64,000 nucleotides of DNA from Candidatus Bathyarchaeota archaeon B24 (GTDB lineage Archaea; Thermoproteota; CALKCG01; B24): NCBI GenBank assembly GCA_001593865.1, contig LUCB01000010.1:1-64000 (forward strand), in the 5' to 3' direction. Shown piece after piece: positions 2,617 to 18,245 of the stretch. Position 1 is the stretch's first letter; each line of letters starts with the position of its first letter. The position numbers and the translations under genes are program-made. The notes under the pieces were generated by a model. That model was not told where the DNA came from and made no database searches. It saw nothing but the letters and a program-made list of their open reading frames with translations.

Positions 2617-4722
2617 ATGTCTAGTTGGAGGAAATATTCTATAATTCTATTGACGTTATTGATTCTAGCACCGGTGTTCTGCAACTTTTCGATGGTTAAC
2701 GCGGGTGAAATCCCTGACGAGCAGAAGAATTGGAAGTGGGAGCCCTACGGTCCTAGGGTCGACACATACCTGATGCCTATATACCTCGACTACGACGCCC
2801 AGCTTATGGCATTCAAGAAAGGTGAAATCGACACGAGCTTCATACAAGCCGCTAGGGTCGACGAGGTTAAAGACGACCCGAACATATACCTGCTTTCCTA
2901 CCAGACGTTTAACTTACAGTTCCTTGGGATCAACACCGCGCTCTATCCGTGGAACTACACGGCCATAAGACAAGCTGTAGCCCACCTTATAGATAGGGAT
3001 TGGATCGTGAGGGAGATATACCACGGGTTCGGCTACCCGGTCGACGCGCCCATACCGCCGGCGTTCGGAGACTGGTCTAACCCCAACGTCACGTCATACG
3101 CGTATAGTAAAGAGCTTGCCAAGAAGGTTCTATTGGATGCAGGTTTCACATACGACGAGGCGGCTGGTAAGTGGTACGACCCAAGCGGTAGAGAGATTCC
3201 AGAGTTCTATGTTCAGGTTCCACCGGCTGAACAGGCTCCGTGGCTTTACCAGGAGGCTCAGCATATAGTCGAAGACGCTAACGACATAGGTCTACCCCTC
3301 AAGGTCGAGGCGATAGAGTTCCAAGCCCTGGTATCGCAGATATACTCACGCACGTTCAAGTCGTTCATATTGTATCTGGGATGGGGTAGACAGCCGACTC
3401 TAGCTTATGAGCTGTTCAGGACCGGTGGTAGCTGGAACTTCTGGGGTATAAGCGACCCTGAGCTCGATGAGTGGCTGGAGAAGTTCTACTTCACCACGGA
3501 TATGGATGAGGCTAAACAGTGGCTTTGGAAGGTCCAGGAGAGGATCGCCGAGATCCTTCCATACATACCGATATACATGGGTAGGGGTAACGTAGGCTTC
3601 AGGACAGATATCGCCGGGGTCGTTTTGTTGCAGCCGCTAGGAGGGCAGTCGTATCTCACGATCTTGGATGTCCACCATATCGGCCTCCCGTTCGGCGGGT
3701 CGTATAGAGAGCCCTTAGGCTCAGACCCCAGAACCCTGAACGTGTTCACCGCCATAACAGGCGACGAGCTTGACGTTATAGGCAACATACTTGAAAGCCT
3801 GTTTATAGCTCATCCAGACCAGGTTTCAGACGACTTGCCTTGGCTTGCCAAGAGCTGGACGATGGAGGAGATCGAGATAAACGGCTCTAAAGCCACCAAG
3901 ATAACGTTCTACCTATTCGATAACGTGACGTGGCATGACGGTGTCAAATTCACGGCGAGAGACGTGGCCTTCACTTGGGATTTCATAAAGGAGAAGAAGC
4001 CTACCCAGCAGTACGCTATGGTGTTCGAGAAGATGATCAAGACGGAGGTCGTCGACGACTACACGGTAGCGGCTTACATAAACGGCACGAGCTGGACTTA
4101 TCTATACGACTTAAACGTGTTGATAGTTCCCGAGCATATATGGGGTAACGAGACGCTTCTGGAGGAGCATGGCGGCTGGGAGAAGTGGGACCCGAGTAAG
4201 GTTCCCCATCCGACTGTCGAAGGGCTCACATGCCTGATAGGTACAGGACCGTATATATTCGCCGAGAGGAAGCCTGGTGAATACATACTCTTAAAGTGGA
4301 ACTACAACTATTGGAGAAGACACCCCGGTAAGTCTTTGAGCCTAACGTTCACCAGCACCGAGTCCCTTTACGCCGGAGACGTTTTAGACGTCTCTGCGAC
4401 TGTCCAAGATTACACGGGTAGCCCCGCCACAAACGCCACGGTGCTCGTAGAGATACTCCAGGACGACTCGGTCGTTAAGAGCGTCTCTGCAACCCATACC
4501 GGAGAAGGCGTCTACACAGCCAGCGTAGATACGGGTGACCTATCCGGAACCTACACCGTGAGGGTGACAGCCTCTGCCGAGATCTTAGGCTACACGTTTA
4601 CAAAGTCTGCTGAGGCCAGTCTGACGGTTAAGCCGGCGTATGAGAAATACTTGCCGCACATAATCGTGGTGGCGGTAATAATAGTGATAGTGGTCATAGT
4701 CGTAGCTCTCAGGCGGCGTTAA
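2617..4722 (+). CDS. ABC transporter solute-binding protein, SBP_bac_5 type, halves swapped
   Basis: Extracytoplasmic binding protein (701 aa) of a peptide/oligosaccharide importer. A signal sequence covers residues 1-29. Residues ~50-345 look like the second half of SBP_bac_5: GEIDTSF at 69-75, FLGINT at 103-108, IRQAVAHLIDRD at 117-128, PYIPIYM at 315-321. Residues ~362-570 look like the first half: LAKSW at 410-414, WHDGVKFTARDVAFTWDF at 439-456, GTGPY at 542-546, NYNYW at 562-566. The order is therefore circularly permuted relative to the usual family. An Ig-like beta domain (~573-672) and a C-terminal membrane anchor (681-697) ending RRR follow. First gene of an operon with two permeases. 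Ligand cannot be read from sequence. Confidence 0.85.
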   Translation: MSSWRKYSIILLTLLILAPVFCNFSMVNAGEIPDEQKNWKWEPYGPRVDTYLMPIYLDYDAQLMAFKKGEIDTSFIQAARVDEVKDDPNIYLLSYQTFNLQFLGINTALYPWNYTAIRQAVAHLIDRDWIVREIYHGFGYPVDAPIPPAFGDWSNPNVTSYAYSKELAKKVLLDAGFTYDEAAGKWYDPSGREIPEFYVQVPPAEQAPWLYQEAQHIVEDANDIGLPLKVEAIEFQALVSQIYSRTFKSFILYLGWGRQPTLAYELFRTGGSWNFWGISDPELDEWLEKFYFTTDMDEAKQWLWKVQERIAEILPYIPIYMGRGNVGFRTDIAGVVLLQPLGGQSYLTILDVHHIGLPFGGSYREPLGSDPRTLNVFTAITGDELDVIGNILESLFIAHPDQVSDDLPWLAKSWTMEEIEINGSKATKITFYLFDNVTWHDGVKFTARDVAFTWDFIKEKKPTQQYAMVFEKMIKTEVVDDYTVAAYINGTSWTYLYDLNVLIVPEHIWGNETLLEEHGGWEKWDPSKVPHPTVEGLTCLIGTGPYIFAERKPGEYILLKWNYNYWRRHPGKSLSLTFTSTESLYAGDVLDVSATVQDYTGSPATNATVLVEILQDDSVVKSVSATHTGEGVYTASVDTGDLSGTYTVRVTASAEILGYTFTKSAEASLTVKPAYEKYLPHIIVVAVIIVIVVIVVALRRR

Positions 4723-4806
4723 CCCCACCTACTTTTTATAAACCCCCATCGTCAATTAACTAGTTGTATTATGCGGAAGTGTTAACCGTTCACCGAGGTG
4801 CGTACG

Positions 4807-5793
4807 TTGAAGGGACTGGGAGGTTACCTGCTACGTAGAGCTGCAGATAGGGTGTTGGTTCTTATAGTGGCTTTAACCCTTCAGTTTCTACTCATCAGGG
4901 TAATGCCTTACTACATCCTCGGCATCGACCCGTCGTTCTTCTTCATGAACCCCAATCTTACGAACGAGCAGAGGGAGCTCATACGCGAACAGTTTGGTTT
5001 AAACGACCCGATCCCCACGCAGTTCGTTAAATACGTTCTGTCGCTTTTCACAGGTAACTTGGGTTTCTCCTTCTACACGAGAAGACCTGTCGTAGAGGAG
5101 CTTTTAGAGAGGTTGCCTAACACGGTCATCCTCCTTGGGACATCTACGGTCTTAACTATAATCTTCGGGTTGGCCGTAGGCTTAGTAACCGCCATGAAAA
5201 GGGGAACCAAGATCGACACAGGTATCGTAAGCGTAAGCGTCTTCCTCAATTCCATACCCCTCTTCTACTTAGGCTTGATTCTACTCTTGTTCCTAAGCTT
5301 CTACTTCCGTGTTTTCCCGACGGCAGGCACCATATCTAGGCCTCCGCCGAAGGAGCCCTTAGCGTACATAGCCGACTACATGTGGCATATGGCTCTCCCC
5401 CTGATGACTCAGCTTATCATAAATATAGGCGGATATGCACTCTTCATAAGAAGTTTATTCATAACCCAGCTTGGAGAGGACTACATAATCACGGCTAGGG
5501 CGAAGGGTATGGCGGAGCACCAGATAATGTTTACCCACGTCTTAAGAAACATCCTTCCGCCTATAATAACGACCATAGCCCTAGCCCTCCCAGGAATAGT
5601 CTCCGGTGCGGTTATAACGGAGACCATATTCTCATGGTATGGAGTGGGTCGTTGGCTTTTCGAAGCCTCGCTTCAGCTAGATTATCCAGTCGTTCAGGCC
5701 GTACTGTTTATATCCGTAGTATTGACCATAGTATCGCTCTACATAGCCGATATAGTAATAGCGATCGTGGATCCCAGGGTGAGGCTTAGATGA
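4807..5793 (+). CDS. Peptide-type ABC transporter permease, DppB/OppB family
   Basis: First membrane subunit of the importer. An N-terminal helix (LLRRAADRVLVLIVALTLQF) is followed by the extracellular loop with the NEQRELIREQFGLNDP motif typical of OppB, then five helices with the EAA-type loop around YIITARAKGMAEHQIMFTHV. Length (~328 aa) is normal. A GTG at 4798 is possible, but the GAGGTG at 4795-4800 is better placed as ribosome-binding site for TTG 4807. The next permease overlaps its stop by ATGA. Confidence 0.92.
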   Translation: MKGLGGYLLRRAADRVLVLIVALTLQFLLIRVMPYYILGIDPSFFFMNPNLTNEQRELIREQFGLNDPIPTQFVKYVLSLFTGNLGFSFYTRRPVVEELLERLPNTVILLGTSTVLTIIFGLAVGLVTAMKRGTKIDTGIVSVSVFLNSIPLFYLGLILLLFLSFYFRVFPTAGTISRPPPKEPLAYIADYMWHMALPLMTQLIINIGGYALFIRSLFITQLGEDYIITARAKGMAEHQIMFTHVLRNILPPIITTIALALPGIVSGAVITETIFSWYGVGRWLFEASLQLDYPVVQAVLFISVVLTIVSLYIADIVIAIVDPRVRLR

Positions 5794-7226
5794 GCCTTCT
5801 TAAAGACCGCAGGCTAAGAACGTTCCTAGACTTCTTTAAGCTACTGCTTAAGCATAGGTCTGGAAGGATCGGTCTGATAATGCTGACGTTCTTCGTGTTC
5901 GTGGCTGTCTTCGCCCCAGTCATATCGCCGCATAAGCCGGATGAGATGGGTTTAGCGGATAGATTCGCCCTACCCATATGGTTTAAACTGCTACCTCAAT
6001 ACAGCGATTTACCTGAGAACCTCGAGTTGAACATCCACGCTCAGGATTGGCTTATAGGAAAGTCTTCACAATACATCGTCGCGTCGATAGAGGATGGATG
6101 GCTCAGCCTATCGCCTTCCGTTGAGGGTATGAAGCCGCGGGAGGACTATATCTTACTCGAACACGATATAGAATATCCCTACTCGCCGCCTAAGAGGTTT
6201 GAGATACATATACCCTACACCGTGACCGTGGAAGGGGAGCTGGGAAGCTATGCACGTATACGCGTCTATCTGGTCGATGTAGACGGCAGAAGCTATATGC
6301 TATACGACGGTAGACCGATAGCCTACAATAAGACGGTCATAGATCCCCCGTTGAGAATAGATACGAGAGATATAGGGCTTAAACTTCGCCTCGGCTTCTC
6401 ACCGTACGACGACGTAGGCGAGAAGATATTCTCCAAGAAAGGCGTCTACCGGCTAAGGCTGGAGGTGAGGCTGTTTACGGTTTCCAATGGAACCGTTACG
6501 GTTAGACTTGGTACGGTGTATTTTAGGATACCGGGCCTGGTCTTCGGCCTGCTGGGCACGGATAACCTCGGTTCAGACCTCTTCGCTAACCTGATATACG
6601 GGACAAGGGTCTCGCTACTGGTGGGTATACTGGCTTCTGTCATATCTGTATCCATAGGTTTAGCCGTGGGGGTCGTAGCGGGTTATAAAGGTGGCTTCGT
6701 CGACCAGACTCTCATGTTTTTAACCGATACCCTCCTCTTCATGCCTACGATACCGTTGCTCATAGCTATAAGCGTGTTCATAGGTAAAAACCTCTACCTA
6801 ACGATCACGCTAATCGCCCTCTTGAGCTGGATGTGGTTTGCTAGAAACTGTCGTGCGTTGGTTATGTCGCTTAGAGACCGTCCCTTCGTCGAAGCCGTTA
6901 AGGCGATCGGAGGCTCGGATATATACATTATATATAGACATGTTATACCCCAGCTGACGCCCATCATATACATAACCCTCGTCCTCAACATCCCCGGTGC
7001 GATACTCTTGGAGGCTGCCTTAAGCTTCTTAAACCTAGGAGACCCGACGGTACCCTCCTGGGGACGCATGCTATATAACGCCCGATACAGCGGAGCTTTC
7101 TTCAAGATGATGTGGTGGTGGATCGTACCACCCGGGTTGATGATAACCTTCTTAGCCATGAGCTTCATACTCATAGGTCAAGCCTTAGATGAGATATTCA
7201 ACCCCAAGCTGAAGGCTAGGAGATAG
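5790..7226 (+). CDS. Peptide-type ABC transporter permease, DppC/OppC family, with large external insert
   Basis: Second membrane subunit. Residues ~25-50 form the first helix; the canonical DppC core resumes at LGTDNLGSDLFANLIYGTR (~residue 253) and continues with five helices and the EAA loop VEAVKAIGGSDIYIIYRHVI. Between them lie about 190 residues rich in predicted beta strand, making the protein 478 aa against ~280-320 for ordinary DppC. By topology the insert is outside the membrane. The start overlaps the upstream stop (ATGA, 5790), indicating translational coupling. A similar insert is present in the second importer of this window. Confidence 0.9.
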   Translation: MSLLKDRRLRTFLDFFKLLLKHRSGRIGLIMLTFFVFVAVFAPVISPHKPDEMGLADRFALPIWFKLLPQYSDLPENLELNIHAQDWLIGKSSQYIVASIEDGWLSLSPSVEGMKPREDYILLEHDIEYPYSPPKRFEIHIPYTVTVEGELGSYARIRVYLVDVDGRSYMLYDGRPIAYNKTVIDPPLRIDTRDIGLKLRLGFSPYDDVGEKIFSKKGVYRLRLEVRLFTVSNGTVTVRLGTVYFRIPGLVFGLLGTDNLGSDLFANLIYGTRVSLLVGILASVISVSIGLAVGVVAGYKGGFVDQTLMFLTDTLLFMPTIPLLIAISVFIGKNLYLTITLIALLSWMWFARNCRALVMSLRDRPFVEAVKAIGGSDIYIIYRHVIPQLTPIIYITLVLNIPGAILLEAALSFLNLGDPTVPSWGRMLYNARYSGAFFKMMWWWIVPPGLMITFLAMSFILIGQALDEIFNPKLKARR

Positions 7227-7229
7227 GTC

Positions 7230-8138
7230 TTGAAAAACCGGGTTGTTCTATGCGCCGCATCTGCGGCTACTTTTTCACTATGCAGTTATACACTGTTCAG
7301 AGTGGCGTTTCTAGGCTACTCGGTGAATTTATCTCCGTTTGAGGCTTTGACCATAGCGGTCGCGGGGTTATTCACAGGCTTAACCCTAGCAGACCTAAAG
7401 CGGTCTCTACTAGTCTTCTACTCGATCTATCTAGCATCATATGTCACAGCGTTAACGTTGCTCAGATACCCCCTAGATACGATGATGGGAGGGTTCTCAG
7501 GAGACCTAGCTACGATAGTCGTGACGAGAAACATAGGGTTTTTCAGCCTGATAGTAGGGGGTCCGGTGTCGATCTTAACGCTTATAATAGGGGTATCCAT
7601 CTCATCTAGGCTCAAGTCTATGTACGTAAGCTTAACCCTAAGCATTCTTCTCATACTTCTGTCCTCAACCATGCTTACCGTCGAATACAGCGACTGGTAT
7701 GGAGAGGTCAGGTCGCTTAAGGGCTTCAGAGTTAACACCGTCTATATGCGTCTGAGCTTAAAAGAGGGGCCTGATGGGGCTAGACCTGTATTAGAGTTGA
7801 ATGCGAGTATGGAGACGGCCGAGGGAAAACCCGCCTGTATAGTTACGGCGATCTACAGGGTCTTCCTAGACGGTAAACTGGTCCGTGAGAAGGTCGACGC
7901 CATGCCGGGTGAAGGGCTCCTAGTGGGTTCTCAACCGGTCTATCGGAAACTCGACATAGAATTGCCTAAGGCTGTGCCGTTAGATTGTCTAGAGAGGAAA
8001 CGGTGTAGGATAGAGGTTCAGGTGAACTTCAAGACCAGGTTTGGGGTAATCCCCGTCAAATATTCTCTAAACTATTCCCTCTCCACGATTTTTATCCCTC
8101 TAGTATACTTCGAAGCTTCACCGGGTATCGGGGCATAG
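7230..8138 (+). CDS. Membrane protein with extracytoplasmic beta domain, importer operon
   Basis: 302-aa protein with about four hydrophobic helices (~5-30, 38-60, 63-85, 105-150) followed by ~140 residues without membrane segments and rich in beta-type sequence. I do not recognise a family. It begins three bases after the DppC-type gene with a TTG start, so it is very likely co-transcribed with the importer. The C-terminal part resembles in composition the external insert of the preceding permease; this is an impression, not an alignment. Its 3' end overlaps the convergent gene at 8072-8584 by 67 bp. Confidence 0.6.
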   Translation: MKNRVVLCAASAATFSLCSYTLFRVAFLGYSVNLSPFEALTIAVAGLFTGLTLADLKRSLLVFYSIYLASYVTALTLLRYPLDTMMGGFSGDLATIVVTRNIGFFSLIVGGPVSILTLIIGVSISSRLKSMYVSLTLSILLILLSSTMLTVEYSDWYGEVRSLKGFRVNTVYMRLSLKEGPDGARPVLELNASMETAEGKPACIVTAIYRVFLDGKLVREKVDAMPGEGLLVGSQPVYRKLDIELPKAVPLDCLERKRCRIEVQVNFKTRFGVIPVKYSLNYSLSTIFIPLVYFEASPGIGA

Positions 8139-8584
8139 AACTTCACTATCCTACAGTTCAACTCTTCCTCGGCTTTTCTGACGTACATGTAGAAGACGGA
8201 ATCGCTTACCCCGACCGACACGATCACAGAGAGCAGGAGCCCTAAAACAACCGCAGGTGGAAGAATGAAGAAGGCGAAGAACGGAGATAAGACGATCGCT
8301 AATATCGCTAACGTAGCCCTCCACCCCTTTCTACGTTCAACCCAACTGTAGATGCCTTTATCCTTCAGAACCCTGAGGGCTCTCTGAAATTTAATGACTC
8401 TAAAAAAGAAGAAATGCATGAGGGTCGCTATGGGGAAAGCCGCCATGAACGTGAGGACGAATAGGGGTCTTAGCTCCTGAGAGGTGGAGGCTAGGATCAT
8501 GAAAACCACGGTTCCTAGTATGGCTGAGGCTATGCGTATGGTGAATTCAACCCTGGTGAAGGGATAAGGAAGGGTGATCTCCAT
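8072..8584 (-). CDS. Small integral membrane protein, function unknown
   Basis: About 170 aa with four hydrophobic segments, two near the N-terminus (ASAILGTVVFMILAS and a following helix with an FFFFR end) and two after a basic loop (TLAILAIVLSPFFAFFILPP and VLGLLLSVIVSVGVSDSVF). ATG 8584 preceded by AGGAG at an 8-nt spacing is preferred over the upstream in-frame ATG 8629, which would overlap the ATPase gene. It follows the two importer ATPase genes on the same strand and is probably co-transcribed with them. No family recognised. Confidence 0.6.
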   Translation of the reverse strand: MEITLPYPFTRVEFTIRIASAILGTVVFMILASTSQELRPLFVLTFMAAFPIATLMHFFFFRVIKFQRALRVLKDKGIYSWVERRKGWRATLAILAIVLSPFFAFFILPPAVVLGLLLSVIVSVGVSDSVFYMYVRKAEEELNCRIVKFYAPIPGEASKYTRGIKIVERE

Positions 8585-8610
8585 CGCTATTTCTCCTAAT
8601 GAACGGTTTC

Positions 8611-9597
8611 TCACCCATATAGGTGGCATGCGACTTTACGACCCTTTTCCACATCTTTCAGACCCGGTTCCTTTTTACTACATATGTCCATCGCGTATGG
8701 GCATCTAGGGTGAAACCTACAACCAGAAGGAGGATTTATAGGGCTGGGAACCTCCCCCTTGATGGGGATCTCCCCTATTTTCACCCTGGGATCCGGGACC
8801 GGTATCGCGGCTGTTAGAGCTTTGGTATATGGGTGTAAGGGGTTGTCTATGACCTCTGTGGCTTCTCCCAACTCTACGACCTTACCGAGGTACATGATCG
8901 CTATTCTATCGCATATGTGTTTAGCCACGGCTAAGTCGTGGGTTATAAAGAGGTAAGCTATCCCGTACCGGTCTCTTATGCCGAGCATAAGGTCGAGTAT
9001 CTCGGCTCTTATGGACATGTCGAGCATCGACACAGGCTCGTCCGCCACTATGAATTCTGGCTGAAGTATTATCGCCCTAGCTATGGCAACCCTCTGCCTC
9101 TGCCCGCCGCTGAGCTCGTGAGGATACCTGTACATAAACTCCTCAGGAGGCTTCAAGGCCACGTCCTCCAAGGTCTTGGTCACTCTTTCGATAACTTCCT
9201 CCCTGTTATGGGCCAATTTATGGATGGATAAGGGCTCGGAGATTATGTCGATAACCCTCATATGGGGGTTGAGGGACTCGTATGGGTCTTGGAATATTAT
9301 CTGAGCTTTTCTACGGAACTCGATGAGCTCTTCCCCGTCTAGATTTGTGATATCTACCCCCTTGAAAAGTATCCTCCCGGCCGTAGGCTCTTCAAGCCTC
9401 AGTATCAACCTTCCGGTCGTCGTCTTACCGCATCCAGATTCGCCGGCTAGGCAGAATATCTCACCACGCTTTATCGCGAAGCTCACCCCATCCACAGCCC
9501 TGATGAACTTAGGCGGCCGCCGTAGTATGATGTCCGCTAGCCCCCTTCTCACGGGAAACCACTTCTTCAACCCGTCTGCTTCGACCACGTTCTCCAA
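8611..9597 (-). CDS. Peptide-type ABC transporter ATPase, DppF/OppF family
   Basis: Cytoplasmic ATP-hydrolysing subunit, 328 aa. Walker A GESGCGKTT (~residue 53), Q-loop IFQDPYESLNPHM, signature LSGGQRQR (~164), Walker B FIVADEPVSMLD and H-loop ITHDLAV are intact. The C-terminal oligo-HPY region has the cysteine set CRFHPRCPY...C...C known in this family to hold an Fe-S cluster. Encoded on the strand opposite the binding protein and permeases, 13 bp downstream of the DppD-type partner. Shares an exact 53-bp DNA segment with that partner. Confidence 0.93.
   Translation of the reverse strand: MENVVEADGLKKWFPVRRGLADIILRRPPKFIRAVDGVSFAIKRGEIFCLAGESGCGKTTTGRLILRLEEPTAGRILFKGVDITNLDGEELIEFRRKAQIIFQDPYESLNPHMRVIDIISEPLSIHKLAHNREEVIERVTKTLEDVALKPPEEFMYRYPHELSGGQRQRVAIARAIILQPEFIVADEPVSMLDMSIRAEILDLMLGIRDRYGIAYLFITHDLAVAKHICDRIAIMYLGKVVELGEATEVIDNPLHPYTKALTAAIPVPDPRVKIGEIPIKGEVPSPINPPSGCRFHPRCPYAMDICSKKEPGLKDVEKGRKVACHLYG
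8681..8733. repeat. 53-bp exact direct repeat, copy 1 (in dppF-type gene)
   Basis: Positions 8681-8733 are identical to 9681-9733, base for base, at an offset of exactly 1000 bp. Flanking bases differ (8680 a versus 9680 g; 8734 a versus 9734 g). The segment encodes the Cys-rich tail PPSGCRFHPRCPYAMDIC in both ATPases. Confidence 0.95.
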
Positions 9598-9610
9598 CGT
9601 AACCCCCCTA

Positions 9611-10576
9611 CTACCTATACAGGTGGCATGCCGCTAGATGATGTTCCCCTACCTCTTTTAGGTTTGGCTCCTTCTCTCTGCATATGTCCATCGCGTATGG
9701 GCATCTAGGGTGAAACCTACAACCAGAAGGAGGGTTCACGAGGTTAGGCGGCACTCCAGGGATGTATGCGAGCTTCCTCTTGCTCTCTCTTATGCTCGGG
9801 ACGCTCTTAAGTAGAGCGGTTGTATAAGGATGCTTGGGCTGGAGCAAGACCTCTACGGCCGGTCCATACTCGACGATCTTCCCCGCATACATCACGGCTA
9901 CTTTATCGCTCATCTCGGCCACGACCGATATGTCGTGCGATATCAGCATAAGAGATAGCTTAAGCCTGCTCTGAAGCTCCTTGATGAGCTTCAACGTCTG
10001 AGCCTGAACTATGACATCCAACGCGGTCGTAGGCTCGTCGGCTATCAATACCTTAGGGTTCAAAGCCAGCGCCATGGCTATCATAACTCTCTGCCTCTGC
10101 CCGCCGCTGAGCTCGAACGGATAGCTCGAGACCCTGGAAGGGTCTATACCCACCAGGCTGAGCAGTTCTTCAGCCCTCCTATAGGCATCCTTCTTGGAGA
10201 CCTTCTCGTGGAGCATGATCGCCTCGGCTATCTGGTCTCCGACCTTTATTATGGGGTTTAAAGCGTTCATGGAGCCTTGGAAGACCATCGATATCTTACG
10301 CCACCGCACCTCTTTACGAAGCCTATGCTCATCCAGCCTAAGTATATCTACTCCGTCGAGCAGTACCTCGCCGCCGAGGACCCGGGCGTTAGAGGGCAAT
10401 ATGCGTAGTATCGTGATCGCTAGGCTCGATTTACCGCATCCAGACTCCCCCACTATCCCAAGAGCCTCCTCCCTATCCAAGTTGAACGAAACACCATCCA
10501 CCGCCTTCACAAAAACCCCATCCCCGACCTCATAGTACATCCTGAGGTCCTTAACCTCTAAGAGCAATTGCTTCAA
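9611..10576 (-). CDS. Peptide-type ABC transporter ATPase, DppD/OppD family
   Basis: ATP-hydrolysing partner of the DppF-type subunit. Walker A GESGCGKSS, signature LSGGQRQR, Walker B VLIADEPTTALD, H-loop ISHDISV and the C-terminal oligo-HPY cysteines CRFHPRCPY...C...C are present. An in-frame ATG exists at 10618, but TTTTATTA at 10621-10629 (reverse strand) would place the transcript start near 10600, so I favour TTG 10576 or 10567, the latter 10 nt after an AGGGGG stretch. Forms a two-gene ATPase unit in opposite orientation to the permeases it should serve. Confidence 0.92.
   Translation of the reverse strand: MKQLLLEVKDLRMYYEVGDGVFVKAVDGVSFNLDREEALGIVGESGCGKSSLAITILRILPSNARVLGGEVLLDGVDILRLDEHRLRKEVRWRKISMVFQGSMNALNPIIKVGDQIAEAIMLHEKVSKKDAYRRAEELLSLVGIDPSRVSSYPFELSGGQRQRVMIAMALALNPKVLIADEPTTALDVIVQAQTLKLIKELQSRLKLSLMLISHDISVVAEMSDKVAVMYAGKIVEYGPAVEVLLQPKHPYTTALLKSVPSIRESKRKLAYIPGVPPNLVNPPSGCRFHPRCPYAMDICREKEPNLKEVGEHHLAACHLYR
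9681..9733. repeat. 53-bp exact direct repeat, copy 2 (in dppD-type gene)
   Basis: Second copy of the segment at 8681-8733. Identity extends through synonymous codon positions, unlike the rest of these two related genes. Confidence 0.95.
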
Positions 10577-10836
10577 TCCCCCTAAAATGGTCCCGACTAA
10601 AATTCTAAATACACCCATGGTAATAAAAGGTTTGGGAGCAGTCGCCGTTTTTCCTTACCGCCCGCGAACACTATTCACAGCGTTTTAGGATGAGTTTTAG
10701 ACTAGAGTAAGCGGGTTCCTATGGTTTCTCTGGCATTTAACGTACCTTTTAAGCAGCGACATCTTCTTTCGACTAGCTGAAAGTCGTAAGGATGAGTTTA
10801 AGCCTAGACGTTCGATCGAATGATGGATAAGCTGGT

Positions 10837-11068: not shown

Positions 11069-11109
11069 AAAGTGGCGCGTGTTAAGATAGAATTTGAGGT
11101 ATGAGTATT

Positions 11110-13797
11110 ATGGAAATTAAGACTAAGCTCAGTTTGTTCGCCGTTCTTCTAGTGATTTCTTCGCTGCTCAGCGTCTGCTTCATAAGCACTCCTAAGGTCG
11201 TCGCTCAAGAGCCTCCTAAGGGTCCATGGGTCGATGAGGTAGACATGTTCATGGAGACGGATGAAGCAAAGGTAGTCGACATGCTCGAAAAGAACGAGAT
11301 ACAGGTGTATTTCAGAGATATAACGGACCCTGAGCTCTTTAAGAAAGTGAAAGCTTCACCCGACTTATGGTACGCTACTTCATACGGACTATACTTTGAA
11401 CTGACGTTTAACCCTGTCGGCCCTGAATTCCCTAAGACCGGTAAGCTAAACCCGTTCGCCGTCCCGCGTATAAGAGAGGCTATGAACTACCTGGTCGATA
11501 GGAAGTATATAGCCGACGAGATAATGGCTGGGATGGCTATACCGAGATATACCGCCCTAACGCCTGCCTTCCCAGACTACGCAAGGTATGCCGACACAAT
11601 TAAGGAGATCGAGAAGAAGTATAGTTACGACTTCGATAAGGCTAGGGAGATCATAACAGAGGAGATGCTCAAGCTCGGTGCCGAGTTGAAGGATGGGAAG
11701 TGGTATTATAAAGGTGAGCCTGTTACGCTGATATTCCTGATCAGGAAGGAGGATCAGAGGAAGGCTATAGGCGACTATGTGGCTTCCCAGCTCGAGAAGC
11801 TCGGGTTCACGGTCGATAGGCAGTATAAGCTGAGTAGAGAGGCGGCTCCCCTATGGATCTTCGGCGACCCTGCGGACGGTAAATGGCACATCTACACAGG
11901 CGGGTGGATAACGACTCTTGTCTCTAGGGATGAAGCAGACAACTTCGGCTTCTTCTACACGTCTAGAGGCCTTTCGGTGCCGCTATGGCAGGCTTACAAG
12001 CCGTCTCCGGAATTCGACTACGTCGCAGGTAGGCTTTGGAATAGAGACTTTAAGACCATGGAGGAGAGAGACGAACTGATGAGAAAGGCTTTAGAACTCG
12101 CGATGAAGGACTCCGTGAGGGTATGGCTGGTCAACCAGCTTGCACCTTGGCCTGCTAGGAAGGAGGTTTCCTTGACCTACGACCTAGCAGCTGGCTTCTC
12201 AGGGGCTAGGTTGTGGCCATACACGATTAGATATGTTAACAAGACGGGCGGTGTCGTCAAGATCGCGTCCACAGATATACTGGTACAGCCTGTGAACCCC
12301 GTCGCGGGAAGCGATTGGATCTACGATGCTATGTACTATCGTGCGGTTTCAGACCCTGCGACCATACCGGACCCGTTCACAGGCTTGTACTGGCCTCAGA
12401 GGGTCGAGAAGGCTGAGGTCTATGTTTTAGAGGGGTTGCCTGTAAGCGTTACGTTGGACTGGGTTGAGCTGAAGTTCGTCGATGAGATCACCGTCCCGGA
12501 GGATGCCTGGTACGACTGGGACCCTGTGGCGAAGAAGATTGTCTACGCTCCTCCTGGGACGACCGCTAAGACGAAGACGGTAGTCTACTACGACGAGAGC
12601 ATATTCGACATGAAGTACCACGACGGCAGTAAATTCTCGATAGCGGACATAGTATTCGACTTTATCCTAACGTTCGATAGGGCTAAGCCGGAGAGCCCGC
12701 TGTACGATGAATCCTATATTCCATCCTTCCAAGCCTTCAGAGAGTACTTCAAAGGTTTTAAGATCGTCAGTGAGAATCCGCTGGTGATAGAGTTCTACTC
12801 AGACGTTGTGTATTTAGATGCTGAGTGGATAGCGTCATCTGCCGCCGGAGAATTCTACCCAGATTACACATATGGGCCTGGGCCTTGGCACACGGTCGCC
12901 ATCGGCTGCCTAGCCGAGGCTGATGGTAAGCTAGCGTTCTCAGCCGATAAGGCTGAGGAGTTCAAGGTGGAGTGGATGAACTTTATCGCAGGTCCATCGC
13001 TTTCGATACTGGAAGAATACTTGGATAAGGCTATCGCGGAGAAGTACATTCCCTACAAGGAGGTTCTTGGCAAGTATATCAGCGAGGACGAGGCCTTGGA
13101 GAGATATGAGAACTTAAAGGCGTGGTATGAGTCTAAGAACCACTTCTTGGTAGGCGCCGGTCCATTCTACCTAGACAGGGTCGACCCCACCGCTAAGATA
13201 GTGGTCTTGAAGGCGAACCGTGAGTTTCTAGACCCCGCGGATAAGTGGCTTAGGTTCTCCAAGCCTATGATCCCTGAGGTCGAGATACCGTCTATACCCA
13301 CGATCGTACCTGGGTTATCTGCCGAGATACCTGTGTCGATAACGTTTGAAGGTGAGCCTTACAAGATAGCCGACATCAGCAGTGTAAAGTATATAGTTAC
13401 AAGCCCGGCTGTCACCATCGTAGGCGAGGCTGAGCCTATCGAGGATGGTGAATGGAATATAGTTCTTAAACCGGAGGAGACAGCCCTACTACCTGCCGGA
13501 ACCGTGGATATAGATGTCCTGGTGGTGTCGAAGCTCGTAGGTATGCCTGTATCGATAACGACTACTACAACCGTTATGAGTACGACCGAATACATGATGA
13601 GCGAACTCGCCAAGGCTAAAGCTGACTACGAGACTAGGATATCCGGGCTTCAGAGTCAGCTTGACACGTTAAGCGGAGAAATCGCAGACCTATCGTCTAG
13701 GATAGACTCGCTGATGAGTATGATGTATGCATCGATAGGCATCGCTATAATAGCCATAATTATAGCTATAGCGGCGATAGTGTTGTCTAGGAGATAG
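11110..13797 (+). CDS. ABC transporter solute-binding protein, SBP_bac_5 type, halves swapped
   Basis: Large binding protein (~895 aa) of the second importer. After a signal sequence ending near VVAQ come segments typical of the later half of SBP_bac_5 (IREAMNYLVDRKYIADEI). The features of the first half appear only later: YHDGSKFSIADIVFDFI around residue 506-522 and VGAGPFYLD around 684-692 (numbered from ATG 11101). A beta-rich stalk, a coiled coil (LQSQLDTLSGEIADLSSRID) and a C-terminal membrane helix ending LSRR anchor it. ATG 11110, nine bases after GAGGT, is preferred to ATG 11101, which abuts it. Longer than usual for the family. Ligand unknown. Confidence 0.85.
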   Translation: MEIKTKLSLFAVLLVISSLLSVCFISTPKVVAQEPPKGPWVDEVDMFMETDEAKVVDMLEKNEIQVYFRDITDPELFKKVKASPDLWYATSYGLYFELTFNPVGPEFPKTGKLNPFAVPRIREAMNYLVDRKYIADEIMAGMAIPRYTALTPAFPDYARYADTIKEIEKKYSYDFDKAREIITEEMLKLGAELKDGKWYYKGEPVTLIFLIRKEDQRKAIGDYVASQLEKLGFTVDRQYKLSREAAPLWIFGDPADGKWHIYTGGWITTLVSRDEADNFGFFYTSRGLSVPLWQAYKPSPEFDYVAGRLWNRDFKTMEERDELMRKALELAMKDSVRVWLVNQLAPWPARKEVSLTYDLAAGFSGARLWPYTIRYVNKTGGVVKIASTDILVQPVNPVAGSDWIYDAMYYRAVSDPATIPDPFTGLYWPQRVEKAEVYVLEGLPVSVTLDWVELKFVDEITVPEDAWYDWDPVAKKIVYAPPGTTAKTKTVVYYDESIFDMKYHDGSKFSIADIVFDFILTFDRAKPESPLYDESYIPSFQAFREYFKGFKIVSENPLVIEFYSDVVYLDAEWIASSAAGEFYPDYTYGPGPWHTVAIGCLAEADGKLAFSADKAEEFKVEWMNFIAGPSLSILEEYLDKAIAEKYIPYKEVLGKYISEDEALERYENLKAWYESKNHFLVGAGPFYLDRVDPTAKIVVLKANREFLDPADKWLRFSKPMIPEVEIPSIPTIVPGLSAEIPVSITFEGEPYKIADISSVKYIVTSPAVTIVGEAEPIEDGEWNIVLKPEETALLPAGTVDIDVLVVSKLVGMPVSITTTTTVMSTTEYMMSELAKAKADYETRISGLQSQLDTLSGEIADLSSRIDSLMSMMYASIGIAIIAIIIAIAAIVLSRR

Positions 13798-13838: not shown

Positions 13839-14900
13839 ATGTATCTAAGGGTTGCGAAGTACCTTCTGAAACGTGGTATCGCACTTTTCATAACGGTAGT
13901 GGTCGCGGTTTATATATCCATCCTCATAGCTAACGCGGGTGGGTATGTAGACCAGATAATCAAGAGCGAGTTGTACATCTCGATCTCACAGAGCGTGCGT
14001 CAAAACCCTGCGTATAAAGCCTTGAACGAGACGCAGGTTAGAGCGCTTATAGAGGAGTTCTACGCTAACGAGTTGAAGAGGATAGGGTTTGATAAGCCTT
14101 TCATATATAGAAGCTTCATCTATTTGATGGATGCTTTGTCGCTGAACCTCGGGAGGTCTCTCTTCATAAGTAGCGACAGCGGTTCTAGGAGTGTCCGCAT
14201 AATAATCCTCGAGAGGTTGCCTAATACCATTCTATTATTCACGACCACCCAGCTTCTCCTGTTTTTCATAGGCTTACTCATAGGCTTACTCTTATCAAGA
14301 AGATACGGTAGTATCTTAGATAGGATTTTTGTCCTTCTAGCACCTCTCTCCAGTTTGCCAGGCTGGTTCTACGGAATATTCCTGATACTGGTATTCGCAT
14401 CCTTCCTCAGAATACTTCCCTACGGAGGTATGGTGGATGTACCCCCACCAACCGACAGGTTCAGCTACGCGTTAAGCGTTTTAAAGCATATGGTCCTGCC
14501 CATAATGTCGTGGCTAGTAGCATACTCCTTCATAAACATATACGTCAGGAGAACGTTCTTTCTTATGTTCTCAAGCGAGGAGTATGTTGAGCTTGCTAAG
14601 GCTAAAGGCTTACCCGAGTCTGTAATTCAGAAAAGATACATACTCAGGCCGACGCTACCGCCTATCATAACCGATTTTTCGCTGACCTTGATAGCTTCCT
14701 GGATGGGTGCCATAATAACCGAGACCATATTCGACTGGCCTGGAATAGGGAGACTGTTCTACACGGCCTCCGTGCTGTTCGACACTCCCGTGCTCATAGG
14801 CCTCGTAGTCATATACGCGTATCTGTTGGCTGTAACGGTCTTCGTCCTCGAGCTGATCTACGTAATCGTAGACCCGAGAATTAGAGCCAGAGGTGGATGA
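13839..14900 (+). CDS. Peptide-type ABC transporter permease, DppB/OppB family
   Basis: 353-aa membrane subunit of the second importer. N-terminal helix from ~12-32, a longer than usual external segment (~33-115, containing NETQVRALIEEFYANELKRIGFDKP), then five helices with the coupling loop EEYVELAKAKGLPESVIQKRY. It follows the binding-protein gene by 41 bp and overlaps the next permease by four bases (ATGA). Same domain plan as the 4807-5793 permease but clearly diverged in sequence. Confidence 0.92.
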   Translation: MYLRVAKYLLKRGIALFITVVVAVYISILIANAGGYVDQIIKSELYISISQSVRQNPAYKALNETQVRALIEEFYANELKRIGFDKPFIYRSFIYLMDALSLNLGRSLFISSDSGSRSVRIIILERLPNTILLFTTTQLLLFFIGLLIGLLLSRRYGSILDRIFVLLAPLSSLPGWFYGIFLILVFASFLRILPYGGMVDVPPPTDRFSYALSVLKHMVLPIMSWLVAYSFINIYVRRTFFLMFSSEEYVELAKAKGLPESVIQKRYILRPTLPPIITDFSLTLIASWMGAIITETIFDWPGIGRLFYTASVLFDTPVLIGLVVIYAYLLAVTVFVLELIYVIVDPRIRARGG

Positions 14901-16306
14901 TGTTGCCTCGTCTTAAACATTTTTTCAGACAGCTCCTCCTCTATAAATCTGCCACGGTAGGGTTAGCCATAATACTCGGCCTCATAGCGATATCCATATA
15001 CACGGTTTTCTCAATCCCCTACAGCGACGCCATCAAACTTTGGAGGGCTGGTGAGCAGTACTGGCTAGACACCCCGCGTAACGCTCTACCGTCATGGGTT
15101 AACTTGTTCCTGTCTAAGAAGCTTCCTGAGACGATAATACTGGATACAGAGAACCCCCAGGTGGGTGTATCCAAAGCCATAATCTCCGCAGGAGAGGAGT
15201 CGAGCGTGATAAAGGTCGAGTTCGTCTTCGACTACCGGTATGACGATTTTCCGAGCGAGATAAACCTGTTCTTCAAGTCTAGCTACAACTCATCGCCTCC
15301 GAGGCTGACCATACACTGGGTCAAGCCAAACGGAGAGGATATAGTTTTAAAGTCTATGCTCGTCGCCAAGGATGATAGGTACTACATATCTAACGACGAG
15401 AAGCTTGCTAGGAGGCTTAGAAGCACATTCTCCGTAAAGCTCAATAGGACTATAGGCTACGACCTGCCTATCTTGGTTCTGCTCTTCGCCCAGGAAGACG
15501 AGAGTCTGTTAGACCCAGGCACGGCTAAGGTCATGAAGGGTACATACAGGCTTTGGATAGATGGTATAGCGTTTGAGAAGGATGTGAAACTGGACGCGAA
15601 GCTTGTCGTATACGGAAAGGTGTATGGGTGGGCTGGCACAGATCACCTGAGGAGGGACCTGGGAATCGCCCTTCTATGGGGGACTCCGATCGCGCTATCC
15701 TTCGGTATAACCGCGTCGGTCTCGGTGGCGTTGATACAGATATTCATAGGTGCTTTATGCGCGTGGTTCGGGGGAAAGGTCGACACGGTTTTACAGAGGG
15801 TTACCGAGATCTTCATGGTACTTCCATTTCTCCCGACTCTGATAATGATATCTACGCTCTATAAGTTCAACATATGGGTTCTCCTACTGATAGTTATACT
15901 GCTCAGCATATTTGGTTCCGGTGTTAAAAACTATAGGGCTATGTTTCTTCAGATCAAGGAGTTTCCATACGTGGAGGCCGCGAGGGCTTATGGAGCTAGC
16001 AACTTTAGAATAGTCACGTATTACCTGATCCCCAAGGTTCTACCCACAATCATACCTTCTATGGTCCTCTCGGTCGCAGACTTCGTGTTCCTCGAGGCTG
16101 CACTTGCTATACTCGGTCTAGGAGACCCGCTAGCGCCGACTTGGGGTAAGATAATCAACGACGCATACGTGAACGGGGCGCTTTATAAGGGCTTATACTA
16201 CTGGGTTCTAGAGCCGTCTGTTATGCTTGCTCTTACCTCTCTTAGCTTCGCCATGCTCGGGTTCACTTTGGATAAGATATTCAATCCAAAGCTGAGGGAG
16301 ATCTAG
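14897..16306 (+). CDS. Peptide-type ABC transporter permease, DppC/OppC family, with large external insert
   Basis: 469-aa second permease. After the first helix (~17-40) there are ~190 residues of non-membrane, beta-rich sequence (including VEFVFDYRYDDFPSEINLFF), then the canonical core from WAGTDHLRRDLGIALLWGTP with five helices and coupling loop VEAARAYGASNFRIVTYYLI. The insert matches in position and size the one in the first importer's DppC-type subunit. The upstream and downstream genes are directly coupled: ATGA at 14897, and the ATPase ATG follows the stop with no gap. Confidence 0.9.
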   Translation: MMLPRLKHFFRQLLLYKSATVGLAIILGLIAISIYTVFSIPYSDAIKLWRAGEQYWLDTPRNALPSWVNLFLSKKLPETIILDTENPQVGVSKAIISAGEESSVIKVEFVFDYRYDDFPSEINLFFKSSYNSSPPRLTIHWVKPNGEDIVLKSMLVAKDDRYYISNDEKLARRLRSTFSVKLNRTIGYDLPILVLLFAQEDESLLDPGTAKVMKGTYRLWIDGIAFEKDVKLDAKLVVYGKVYGWAGTDHLRRDLGIALLWGTPIALSFGITASVSVALIQIFIGALCAWFGGKVDTVLQRVTEIFMVLPFLPTLIMISTLYKFNIWVLLLIVILLSIFGSGVKNYRAMFLQIKEFPYVEAARAYGASNFRIVTYYLIPKVLPTIIPSMVLSVADFVFLEAALAILGLGDPLAPTWGKIINDAYVNGALYKGLYYWVLEPSVMLALTSLSFAMLGFTLDKIFNPKLREI

Positions 16307-17269
16307 ATGGCTGAGCCTCACCTGACCGTGAAAAACCTCGTGATGTATTACAGAACCGTTAGAGGCGAGGTTAAAGCGGTCGACAACGTATCCTTCTCTC
16401 TGCCGAGAAGTAAGACCGTTGCGATAATCGGGGAGTCTGGCTGTGGGAAAAGCTCCTTAGCTAAATCGATAATAAAGCTACTACCTAGGAATGTATCGGT
16501 GTATAAGGGTGTTATACTTTTCGACGGCGTGGATCTCATGAAGATGGACGAGGAGAGCTTCAGGAGAGATATCAGGTGGGTTAAGATAACCTATGTCCCC
16601 CAGGCCGCGTTAAACTCCTTAAACCCGGTTATTAAGATAGGGGAGCAGATGATCGAGCCCCTACTCCTACACTTTAAGATGCGTAAGACGGAGGCTCTCG
16701 AAAGAGCTGCCAAGGCTTTGAAAACGGTTGGTATAAGCGAGGAGTTTATAAATCATTATCCGTTCGAGCTCAGCGGCGGTATGAGGCAGAGGGTTATAAT
16801 AGCTATGTCCATGCTCACAAACCCGGAGCTTATGGTTCTAGACGAGCCTACGTCTTCACTAGACGTGCTAACCCAAGCTAACATAATAAACCTGTTAAAA
16901 ACGATAAAGAGAGACTTAAAGCTTAGTATGATATTCATAACGCATGACGTCGGCTTATCCAGCGAGCTTGCGGATAGGGTTGCCGTGATGTACGCCGGGC
17001 AGATAGTCGAATTCGCTAGCGCCGATGAGTTTTATCGCAACCCTAAGCACCCATACTCGCAGAAGCTCATGGATAGCGTCCCCACGCTTAAAACCGATAA
17101 GAAGCTTGACTTCATACCGGGCTCACCTCCGAGCCTCCTAAACCCGCCTAGGGGGTGTAGATTCGCTGAAAGATGCCCCTACAGGTTTGAGAAGTGCAAA
17201 GAACCCCCTCCCGTGATAAACTTAAGCGAGGAATTTTACGTTAGATGCTGGCTTTACGAGAAGAGGTGA
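16307..17269 (+). CDS. Peptide-type ABC transporter ATPase, DppD/OppD family
   Basis: 320-aa ATPase with Walker A GESGCGKSS, Q-loop TYVPQAALNSLNP, signature LSGGMRQR, Walker B MVLDEPTSSLD and H-loop ITHDVGL. The C-terminus carries the oligo-HPY Cys set (CRFAERCPYRFEKC...C). The ATG directly follows the stop codon of the permease gene. Unlike the first importer, this system has both ATPases in line with the permeases. Confidence 0.93.
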   Translation: MAEPHLTVKNLVMYYRTVRGEVKAVDNVSFSLPRSKTVAIIGESGCGKSSLAKSIIKLLPRNVSVYKGVILFDGVDLMKMDEESFRRDIRWVKITYVPQAALNSLNPVIKIGEQMIEPLLLHFKMRKTEALERAAKALKTVGISEEFINHYPFELSGGMRQRVIIAMSMLTNPELMVLDEPTSSLDVLTQANIINLLKTIKRDLKLSMIFITHDVGLSSELADRVAVMYAGQIVEFASADEFYRNPKHPYSQKLMDSVPTLKTDKKLDFIPGSPPSLLNPPRGCRFAERCPYRFEKCKEPPPVINLSEEFYVRCWLYEKR

Positions 17270-17273
17270 TGGT

Positions 17274-18245
17274 GTGCCCCTACTCGATATCATAGACCTC
17301 AAGAAGTACTTTGAGGTTAAGAGAGGGATTTTCGGTAGCAAAGGCTATGTGAAGGCCGTAGACGGAGTGAGCCTATCCCTAGAGAGGGGTGAGTCTGTCT
17401 CCATAGTGGGTGAGAGTGGCTGCGGGAAGACCACGCTGGGTAAAACCATACTTAGGCTCTACGAGCCTACCGATGGTAAAATAGTGTTTGACGGTAAAGA
17501 TATAACTCATCTAACCTGGAAGGAGCTCAGCTGGTATAGAAGGGAAACAGGTTTAGTCCAGCAAGACCCCTCGGGTGCGCTACCCTCGTTTATGACGGTT
17601 AAAAGGATTTTAGAGGAGCCTCTGATAATCCACAAGGTTAAGGATAAAGAGGAGAGGAGGGAGAGGATTTATAAGGTTTTAGAGCAGGTTAAGCTGACCC
17701 CGGTTGAGGACTTCCTCGAGAAGTATCCTCATATGCTCAGCGGTGGGCAACAGCAGAGGCTCGTGATCGCGAGGTCTATAATTTTAAGGCCAAAGCTTAT
17801 AATCGCTGATGAGCCTGTTTCCATGCTAGATGCATCTGTGAGGGTGGAGATACTTAAACTGTTACAGAATCTTCAGAGGGATTATAGGTTAAGCATCATA
17901 TACATCACCCATGACCTCTCGACTACAAGGTACTTCTCCGAGAGGATATGCATAATGTATGCCGGGCACATAGTCGAGAGCGCTGAGACTAGGGAGCTGT
18001 TAACCAACCCCTTACATCCGTATACGAGAGCTCTTTTAAACGTCATACCGGACCCCGACCCGTCTAACCGCTTCATAATCAGGGAGGTGCCGGCTGGTGA
18101 GCCTCCAAACCTGCTGAACCCCCCTCCGGGATGCCGTTTTAGCCCTAGATGTCGAAACATCATGAATGGACTGTGCGACGTTAAGGAGCCTCCTGTGGTC
18201 GAGGTTCGTAAAGGACATTTCGTGAAGTGTTGGCTTTATGTTTAG
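17274..18245 (+). CDS. Peptide-type ABC transporter ATPase, DppF/OppF family
   Basis: 323-aa ATPase with Walker A GESGCGKTT, signature LSGGQQQR, Walker B LIIADEPVSMLD, H-loop ITHDLST and the C-terminal Cys motif CRFSPRCRNIMNGLC. The GTG start at 17274 follows GAGGTG (17263-17268) by five bases. The Q-loop reads VQQDPSGALPS. Fifth gene of the second importer operon. Confidence 0.93.
   Translation: MPLLDIIDLKKYFEVKRGIFGSKGYVKAVDGVSLSLERGESVSIVGESGCGKTTLGKTILRLYEPTDGKIVFDGKDITHLTWKELSWYRRETGLVQQDPSGALPSFMTVKRILEEPLIIHKVKDKEERRERIYKVLEQVKLTPVEDFLEKYPHMLSGGQQQRLVIARSIILRPKLIIADEPVSMLDASVRVEILKLLQNLQRDYRLSIIYITHDLSTTRYFSERICIMYAGHIVESAETRELLTNPLHPYTRALLNVIPDPDPSNRFIIREVPAGEPPNLLNPPPGCRFSPRCRNIMNGLCDVKEPPVVEVRKGHFVKCWLYV

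Follow-up and report, generated by a model that had tools for sequence, protein, structure and literature searches.

The window, a 64,000-nucleotide stretch of contig LUCB01000010.1 from Candidatus Bathyarchaeota archaeon B24, carries two Dpp/Opp-type operons, each with a solute-binding protein (SBP) of the SBP_bac_5 family in which the segments stand in permuted order. We call the segments of the fold N, C1, and C2. Cluster C SBPs such as DppA, OppA, AppA, and NikA/NikZ share motifs, fold segments, and the DppBCDF-type operon with the window proteins but run N-C1-C2, whereas the window proteins run C1-C2-N (form A, with types A1 and A2). The features of the two operons are the following.

2617..4722, + strand: permuted SBP_bac_5 solute-binding protein (form A, type A1); ATG start, 701 aa, intact ORF
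2617..2706, + strand: approximate signal peptide, aa 1–30 (hydrophobic aa 6–29; AF2 helix 3–21)
2743..3186, + strand: segment C1, the canonical middle, aa ~43–190, opening with GPRVD and holding GEID and LIDR (Pfam, profile scan, motifs)
3187..3666, + strand: segment C2, the canonical C-terminal part, aa ~191–350, holding LPYIPIY (profile scan, motifs)
3649..3696, + strand: junction of canonical C-terminus to canonical N-terminus (gap between profile ends)
3682..4332, + strand: segment N, the canonical N-terminal half, aa ~356–572, holding LAKSW, WHDG, FTARDV, GTGPY, and NYNYW (Pfam, profile scan, motifs)
4333..4632, + strand: all-beta (Ig/MG-like) stalk domain, aa 573–672 (AF2; weak Pfam matches)
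4633..4719, + strand: C-terminal membrane anchor, TM aa 674–701 (AF2, hydropathy)
4798..5793, + strand: DppB/OppB-type permease (Pfam)
5790..7226, + strand: DppC/OppC-type permease, 478 aa, insert-bearing (Pfam; TM1-to-core gap)
5922..6572, + strand: ~200-aa extracytoplasmic insert of the first DppC, from TM1 to the permease core, without Pfam match
8611..9597, − strand: Dpp/Opp-type ATPase with oligo_HPY domain (Pfam)
9611..10618, − strand: Dpp/Opp-type ATPase with oligo_HPY domain (Pfam)
11101..13797, + strand: the other permuted SBP_bac_5 protein (form A, type A2); 898 aa, coiled-coil stalk present, TM at the C-terminus (Pfam, PDB sequence matches, hydropathy)
13839..14900, + strand: DppB-type permease, second operon (Pfam)
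14897..16306, + strand: DppC-type permease with insert, second operon (Pfam; TM1-to-core gap)
15029..15652, + strand: insert of the DppC in the second operon, extracytoplasmic; same homologous family as the first insert
16307..17269, + strand: Dpp/Opp-type ATPase, second operon (Pfam)
17274..18245, + strand: probable second ATPase, second operon (position and size)

According to Pfam, the SBP gene at 2617–4722 is thus adjoined by a Dpp/Opp importer gene set of two permeases and two oligo_HPY ATPases, and the same dppBC and dppDF set is kept in two related loci (L053 and L054). Downstream of the permuted-SBP operon, the small ORFs 7230–8138 (+) and 8072–8629 (−) are also kept in the same arrangement in these two loci; the former has no Pfam match, and both are possibly accessory components. 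Directly upstream of the operon, positions 1151–2002 encode an ECF transporter S component (PF12822).

The Pfam model PF00496 matches the first SBP, hereafter the window protein, twice and in reversed order (185 bits against a cut-off of 32.4). The first stretch, nt 2737–3399 (aa 41–261), corresponds to profile positions 141–351 (E = 3e-29) and the second, nt 3838–4446 (aa 408–610), to positions 4–185 (E = 1e-26). Profile positions 141–351 preceding 4–185, the protein departs from the collinear N-to-C order of the model, and no single collinear SBP_bac_5 match is present in it. The profile ends of the two stretches overlap by 45 positions. As matches to solved SBPs stop at aa 566–573, the part of the second stretch beyond this point, which covers the opening strands of the stalk, is read as over-extension. 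Sequence matches to PDB chains are split and reversed in the same way, aa 416–569 aligning, for example, with 55–194 of 6i3g and aa 35–322 with 184–457 of the same chain, and no chain in the searched PDB matched across the junction. The motifs follow suit: GPRVD (aa 45–49), GEID (69–72), LIDR (124–127), and LPYIPIY (314–320) of the C half come before LAKSW (410–414), WHDG (439–442), GTGPY (542–546), and NYNYW (562–566) of the N half. None of the NCBIfam equivalogs for DppA, OppA, or NikA scored above its cut-off with the window protein, the top match being Opp4A with 100.8 bits against 650.

In canonical relatives the strands on the two sides of the break are contiguous, as in NPNYWRKG|YPKFDEIIFP, where NPNYW is followed directly by GxPxxDEI. 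The domain of the window protein opens at the second of these strands (GPRVDTYL, aa 45) and closes a few residues after NYNYW, and the linker from canonical C-terminus to N-terminus measures 11 aa between profile ends, compared with 8–16 aa in most A1- and B-type relatives. Every segment of the parent fold occurs once and in rotated order, the pattern of a circular permutant. Judged by its sequence, the window protein is a member of SBP_bac_5 with circularly permuted order and the C-terminal half first. The preliminary description had proposed reversed halves with a break exactly after NYNYW and had suggested a Pfam search for split matches in reversed order; Pfam, the PDB matches, and the motif positions agree on the reversal, the search returned two such stretches, and the chain is indeed opened a few residues after this motif. 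The frame around the permuted body had been described as a normal signal peptide, Ig-like domain, and membrane anchor. The signal peptide and the anchor stand, while "Ig-like" draws on an AF2 segment that is all-beta and on Pfam matches that are all below threshold (MG4, Invasin_D3, and Big_1).

In the A2 protein at 11101–13797, Pfam places profile positions 145–350 first and 26–155 later, the later stretch being weak (E = 6e-4). Its closest PDB relative is 7FI3 (E = 2e-32, both halves matched), which we take to be OppA of Thermococcus kodakarensis and whose record name is "ABC-type dipeptide/oligopeptide transport system." This OppA is canonical, with its N half at 50–309 before its C half at 401–575, unlike the A2 protein, where residues 442–712 align with 50–309 and residues 115–278 with 401–575; the two reversed stretches make the permuted order clear. 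The N half of the A2 protein holds a large insertion, and its C-terminal stretch matches the S-layer stalk-type membrane protein 8qox_B.

The distribution of the permuted forms was studied in 300 genomes of the phylum, for which the name Thermoproteota is inferred from named relatives. Single alignments across the junction were found for type A1, with the window protein as query, in ~23 of the 300 genomes and for type A2, with the second protein as query, in more than 100 of 300 among the matches listed, beyond which further A2 lineages were added. The A1 relatives among the genome contigs were found with an alignment as query and none with a single protein, and the named ones belong to Thermofilaceae, Culexmicrobium, and Bathyarchaeota, together with one MAG labelled Clostridia. 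The suggestion that the arrangement may be widespread in TACK archaea is borne out by the many Thermoproteota genomes in which one alignment crosses the junction. When all fetched ORFs were scanned with the profile, 104 proteins were canonical (N-C1-C2), 61 were of form A (C1-C2-N), and 7 were of a further form (C2-N-C1), which we call form B; the scan revealed no other segment order and no protein with two strong copies of one segment.

Form B is circularly permuted in a different way, with the chain opened behind the "AGF..DGDG" region. In one representative (L110), Pfam aligns aa 247–535 with profile positions 2–284 and places a second stretch elsewhere. The carriers comprise three archaeal loci (L046, L059, and L061) and records from Micromonosporaceae, Martelella, and Chloroflexi. 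Full-length form B also resides on plasmids of cultured strains of Nitratireductor, Neorhizobium, Microvirga, Roseomonas, Ketogulonicigenium, and many haloarchaea, where the genes lie in intact operons and are annotated "ABC transporter substrate-binding protein" (e.g., WP_206544944.1 and WP_238532955.1). Genes for M28 or M20 peptidases often adjoin these plasmid-borne form-B genes.

Both DppC proteins of the window are ~470 aa long compared with the usual ~300 aa. The E. coli and M. tuberculosis DppC and OppC of known structure (8z1v, 8z21, 8wd9, and 8j5q; 287–302 aa) have the permease core in common with the window DppC but lack the ~200-aa insert of form-A partners, which falls outside the region that they match. 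We measured the gap from TM1 to the core in all operons with enough flank. It spans 196–360 aa in 35 of 36 form-A operons (A1, 208–247 aa in 18 of 19; A2, 196–360 aa in 17 of 17). Of the 67 operons with canonical order, 66 have a gap of 20–32 aa and one has a gap of 94 aa, so that none is a clear insert case. In form B the gap is 26–46 aa in six of seven operons. The association of insert with SBP order is strong (Fisher's P ~ 1e-25), although the operons are related by descent and the link therefore represents one or two independent events. The inserts of the A1 and A2 operons share homology (hhalign probability 98.7), and neither has a Pfam match. Used alone as query, the insert was found in 22 of 300 genomes, almost every one of which carries an A1 SBP. 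The seventh form-B operon, from an actinobacterial MAG (L107, DppC at 8549–10234), has a different, repeat-rich insert of 306 aa, which looks like a beta-propeller and occupies the site of the archaeal insert. Long DppC proteins in operons of Bradyrhizobium and Bosea (core start at 227–419) were set aside, the ORF start being over-extended and the TM1-to-core gap short.

In Dpp/Opp importers the SBP clasps its ligand with its two lobes, and DppB/DppC serves as its docking site. We consider the window protein, with a probability of about 0.87, to be the permuted substrate-binding subunit of such an ABC importer, presumably for peptides or peptide-like substrates and docking on the modified DppC; the form-A operons in general are most likely working Dpp/Opp-type importers whose permuted SBP would dock on the modified permease. 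A short linker joins the canonical C- and N-termini, and the new chain ends lie between the NxxYW strand and the GxPxxDE strand. The permuted chain would adopt the two-lobed fold of canonical binding proteins, only the chain ends having moved. The signal peptide would direct secretion, and the beta-domain stalk and C-terminal anchor would hold the SBP at the membrane; on closing around its ligand, the SBP would hand it over to the DppB/DppC permease encoded next to it, with the two ATPases supplying the energy. The DppC insert, inherited with the permuted SBP, is most plausibly a co-adapted dock that contacts it, although co-occurrence alone is no proof of physical contact since insert and permutation were inherited together in one or two events.

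The preliminary description saw the move of the termini to another face as relevant for a tethered SBP. On such a view the permutation would be an adaptation to tethering, the C-terminus being moved so that the stalk could place the SBP better over the permease. Most form-A proteins of Thermoproteota do end with a stalk and TM, and archaeal form B has a clear MG2 stalk at its new C-terminus (Pfam). However, the two canonical-order SBPs of the same genome (contigs C2 and C9) have C-terminal stalks too, alphaproteobacterial form B lacks a C-terminal stalk and has a C tail of 0–8 aa, and the form-A protein labelled Clostridia (L056) stops directly after the N half. With stalked canonical and unstalked permuted SBPs both in existence, tethering alone does not explain the permutation; as a general account it is unsupported, and we regard it as unlikely. 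More can be learned from the context of the partner permease. The same context bears on the idea that the permuted protein is a sensor or a structural surface protein rather than a transport subunit. Large stalks would suit such a role, as would the ends of some relatives: two form-A SBPs (L043 and L048) have dockerin-like calcium-binding repeats and no membrane anchor, as judged from a weak Pfam Dockerin_1 match for the former and by eye for the latter. The dppBC and dppDF genes are nevertheless consistently adjacent and the DppC partner has the matched insert, and this role appears improbable.

In theory, a half-domain can be complemented by a different chain, and the two halves might then derive from two paralogous SBP_bac_5 proteins that became fused, or each might pair with another chain. 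The halves are, however, complementary and nonrepeated parts of one profile and sum to one SBP of ~520 aa, no scanned protein has a duplicate strong segment, and AF2 folds the window protein into one confident body (mean pLDDT 91.3, pTM 0.87), in which aa 575–672 form an all-beta domain and a helix lies at the C-terminus. As the AF2 alignment combined the window protein and its permuted relatives with canonical relatives split into unpaired halves, the model is no independent proof of a closed fold. The top Foldseek matches of the model in the PDB are all cluster C SBPs (NikZ, AppA, and DppA), with ~290–310 of ~500 columns aligned and a TM-score by target of ~0.5; each alignment covers a single half, which is all that a sequential aligner can match in a permuted protein. 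A model of the A2 protein, built from seven sequences only, reached a pLDDT of 44 and was not used as evidence. The two halves of the window protein are not paralogs of each other, and a composite origin or function is very improbable. Although the source assembly is fragmented into 37 contigs, an assembly or gene-model artefact (a rearranged contig or a wrong frame) is already refuted by the same order, with intact frames, signal peptide, and anchor, in independent assemblies of many genomes, single-contig ones included, and by the presence of form B in cultured strains, where it lies on complete plasmids.

In a tree of the rotated SBPs, A1 forms one clade (support 97–99) with archaeal form B adjoining (90–97). 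In the free SBP trees, A2 groups with the canonical T. kodakarensis OppA, and bacterial form B lies apart from form A. The AU test rejected neither A1 and A2 held together (lnL higher by 7.0, P = 0.60) nor forms A and B held together (lnL higher by 2.5, P = 0.54), and the SBP tree therefore cannot fix the number of origins; nor does it settle whether form A arose once, given that the canonical 7FI3 is nearest to A2 among PDB chains. In the tree of the DppC core, computed with the insert left out, all 35 permeases of form-A operons that bear the insert fall into one group (SH-aLRT 94), and the bacterial and haloarchaeal form-B permeases make up a clade of their own (100). A single origin of form A with the insert module is thus likely, while the SBP tree leaves the total number of permutation events undecided. 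One form-A SBP is paired with a DppC without insert (L252); it belongs to the SBP (L166/L038) that stands at the base of A1 in the SBP tree, and this suggests that the permutation came first and the insert later. Form A probably arose once, through tandem duplication, in-frame fusion, and truncation, with DppC gaining its ~200-aa insert afterward.

More broadly, and as a tentative proposal that we hold at somewhat less than even odds, form-A SBPs with insert-bearing DppC may constitute a distinct and ancient peptide importer lineage of Thermoproteota whose permuted SBP would dock by way of a dedicated receptor domain of the permease, with form B, a second permutant opened at another place, serving bacteria and haloarchaea. 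If true, SBP topology and docking would have co-evolved. SBP_bac_5 proteins are among the commonest prokaryotic nutrient receptors and have one chain topology in textbooks; the fold now has three natural topologies, of which two lack annotation and one occurs across much of Thermoproteota. In full-length domain searches the permuted proteins appear as fragmentary matches. The paired DppC insert makes it testable whether a dock must be re-engineered when its binding protein is rewired. Biosensors usually require engineered permutations, for which naturally permuted SBPs are ready starting points. Neither the open literature that could be searched, which covers few subscription papers, nor CIRPIN, a 2025 permutation survey method (PMC12667903), yielded an account of SBP_bac_5 permutants. 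Natural circular permutations of a conserved fold are known from GH70 glucansucrases and GH13 MalS (PMC9732880, PMC10223318), the same type of rearrangement in a different family.

Several individual cases deserve mention. The OppA of S. solfataricus, SSO1273, might be of form A, but we make no claim to that effect; the protein is reportedly a possible virus receptor (PMC4124505). The Clostridia-labelled MAG, Clostridia bacterium RSA5 (L056), has both a form-A SBP and an insert-bearing DppC, reflecting either horizontal transfer or a binning error. One form-A SBP (L040, 949–3870) contains an extra domain of ~150 aa directly after the first strand, and in another locus (L030, G182:C1) a single TAG breaks the frame of the permuted SBP, consistent with a pseudogene, a sequencing error, or readthrough.
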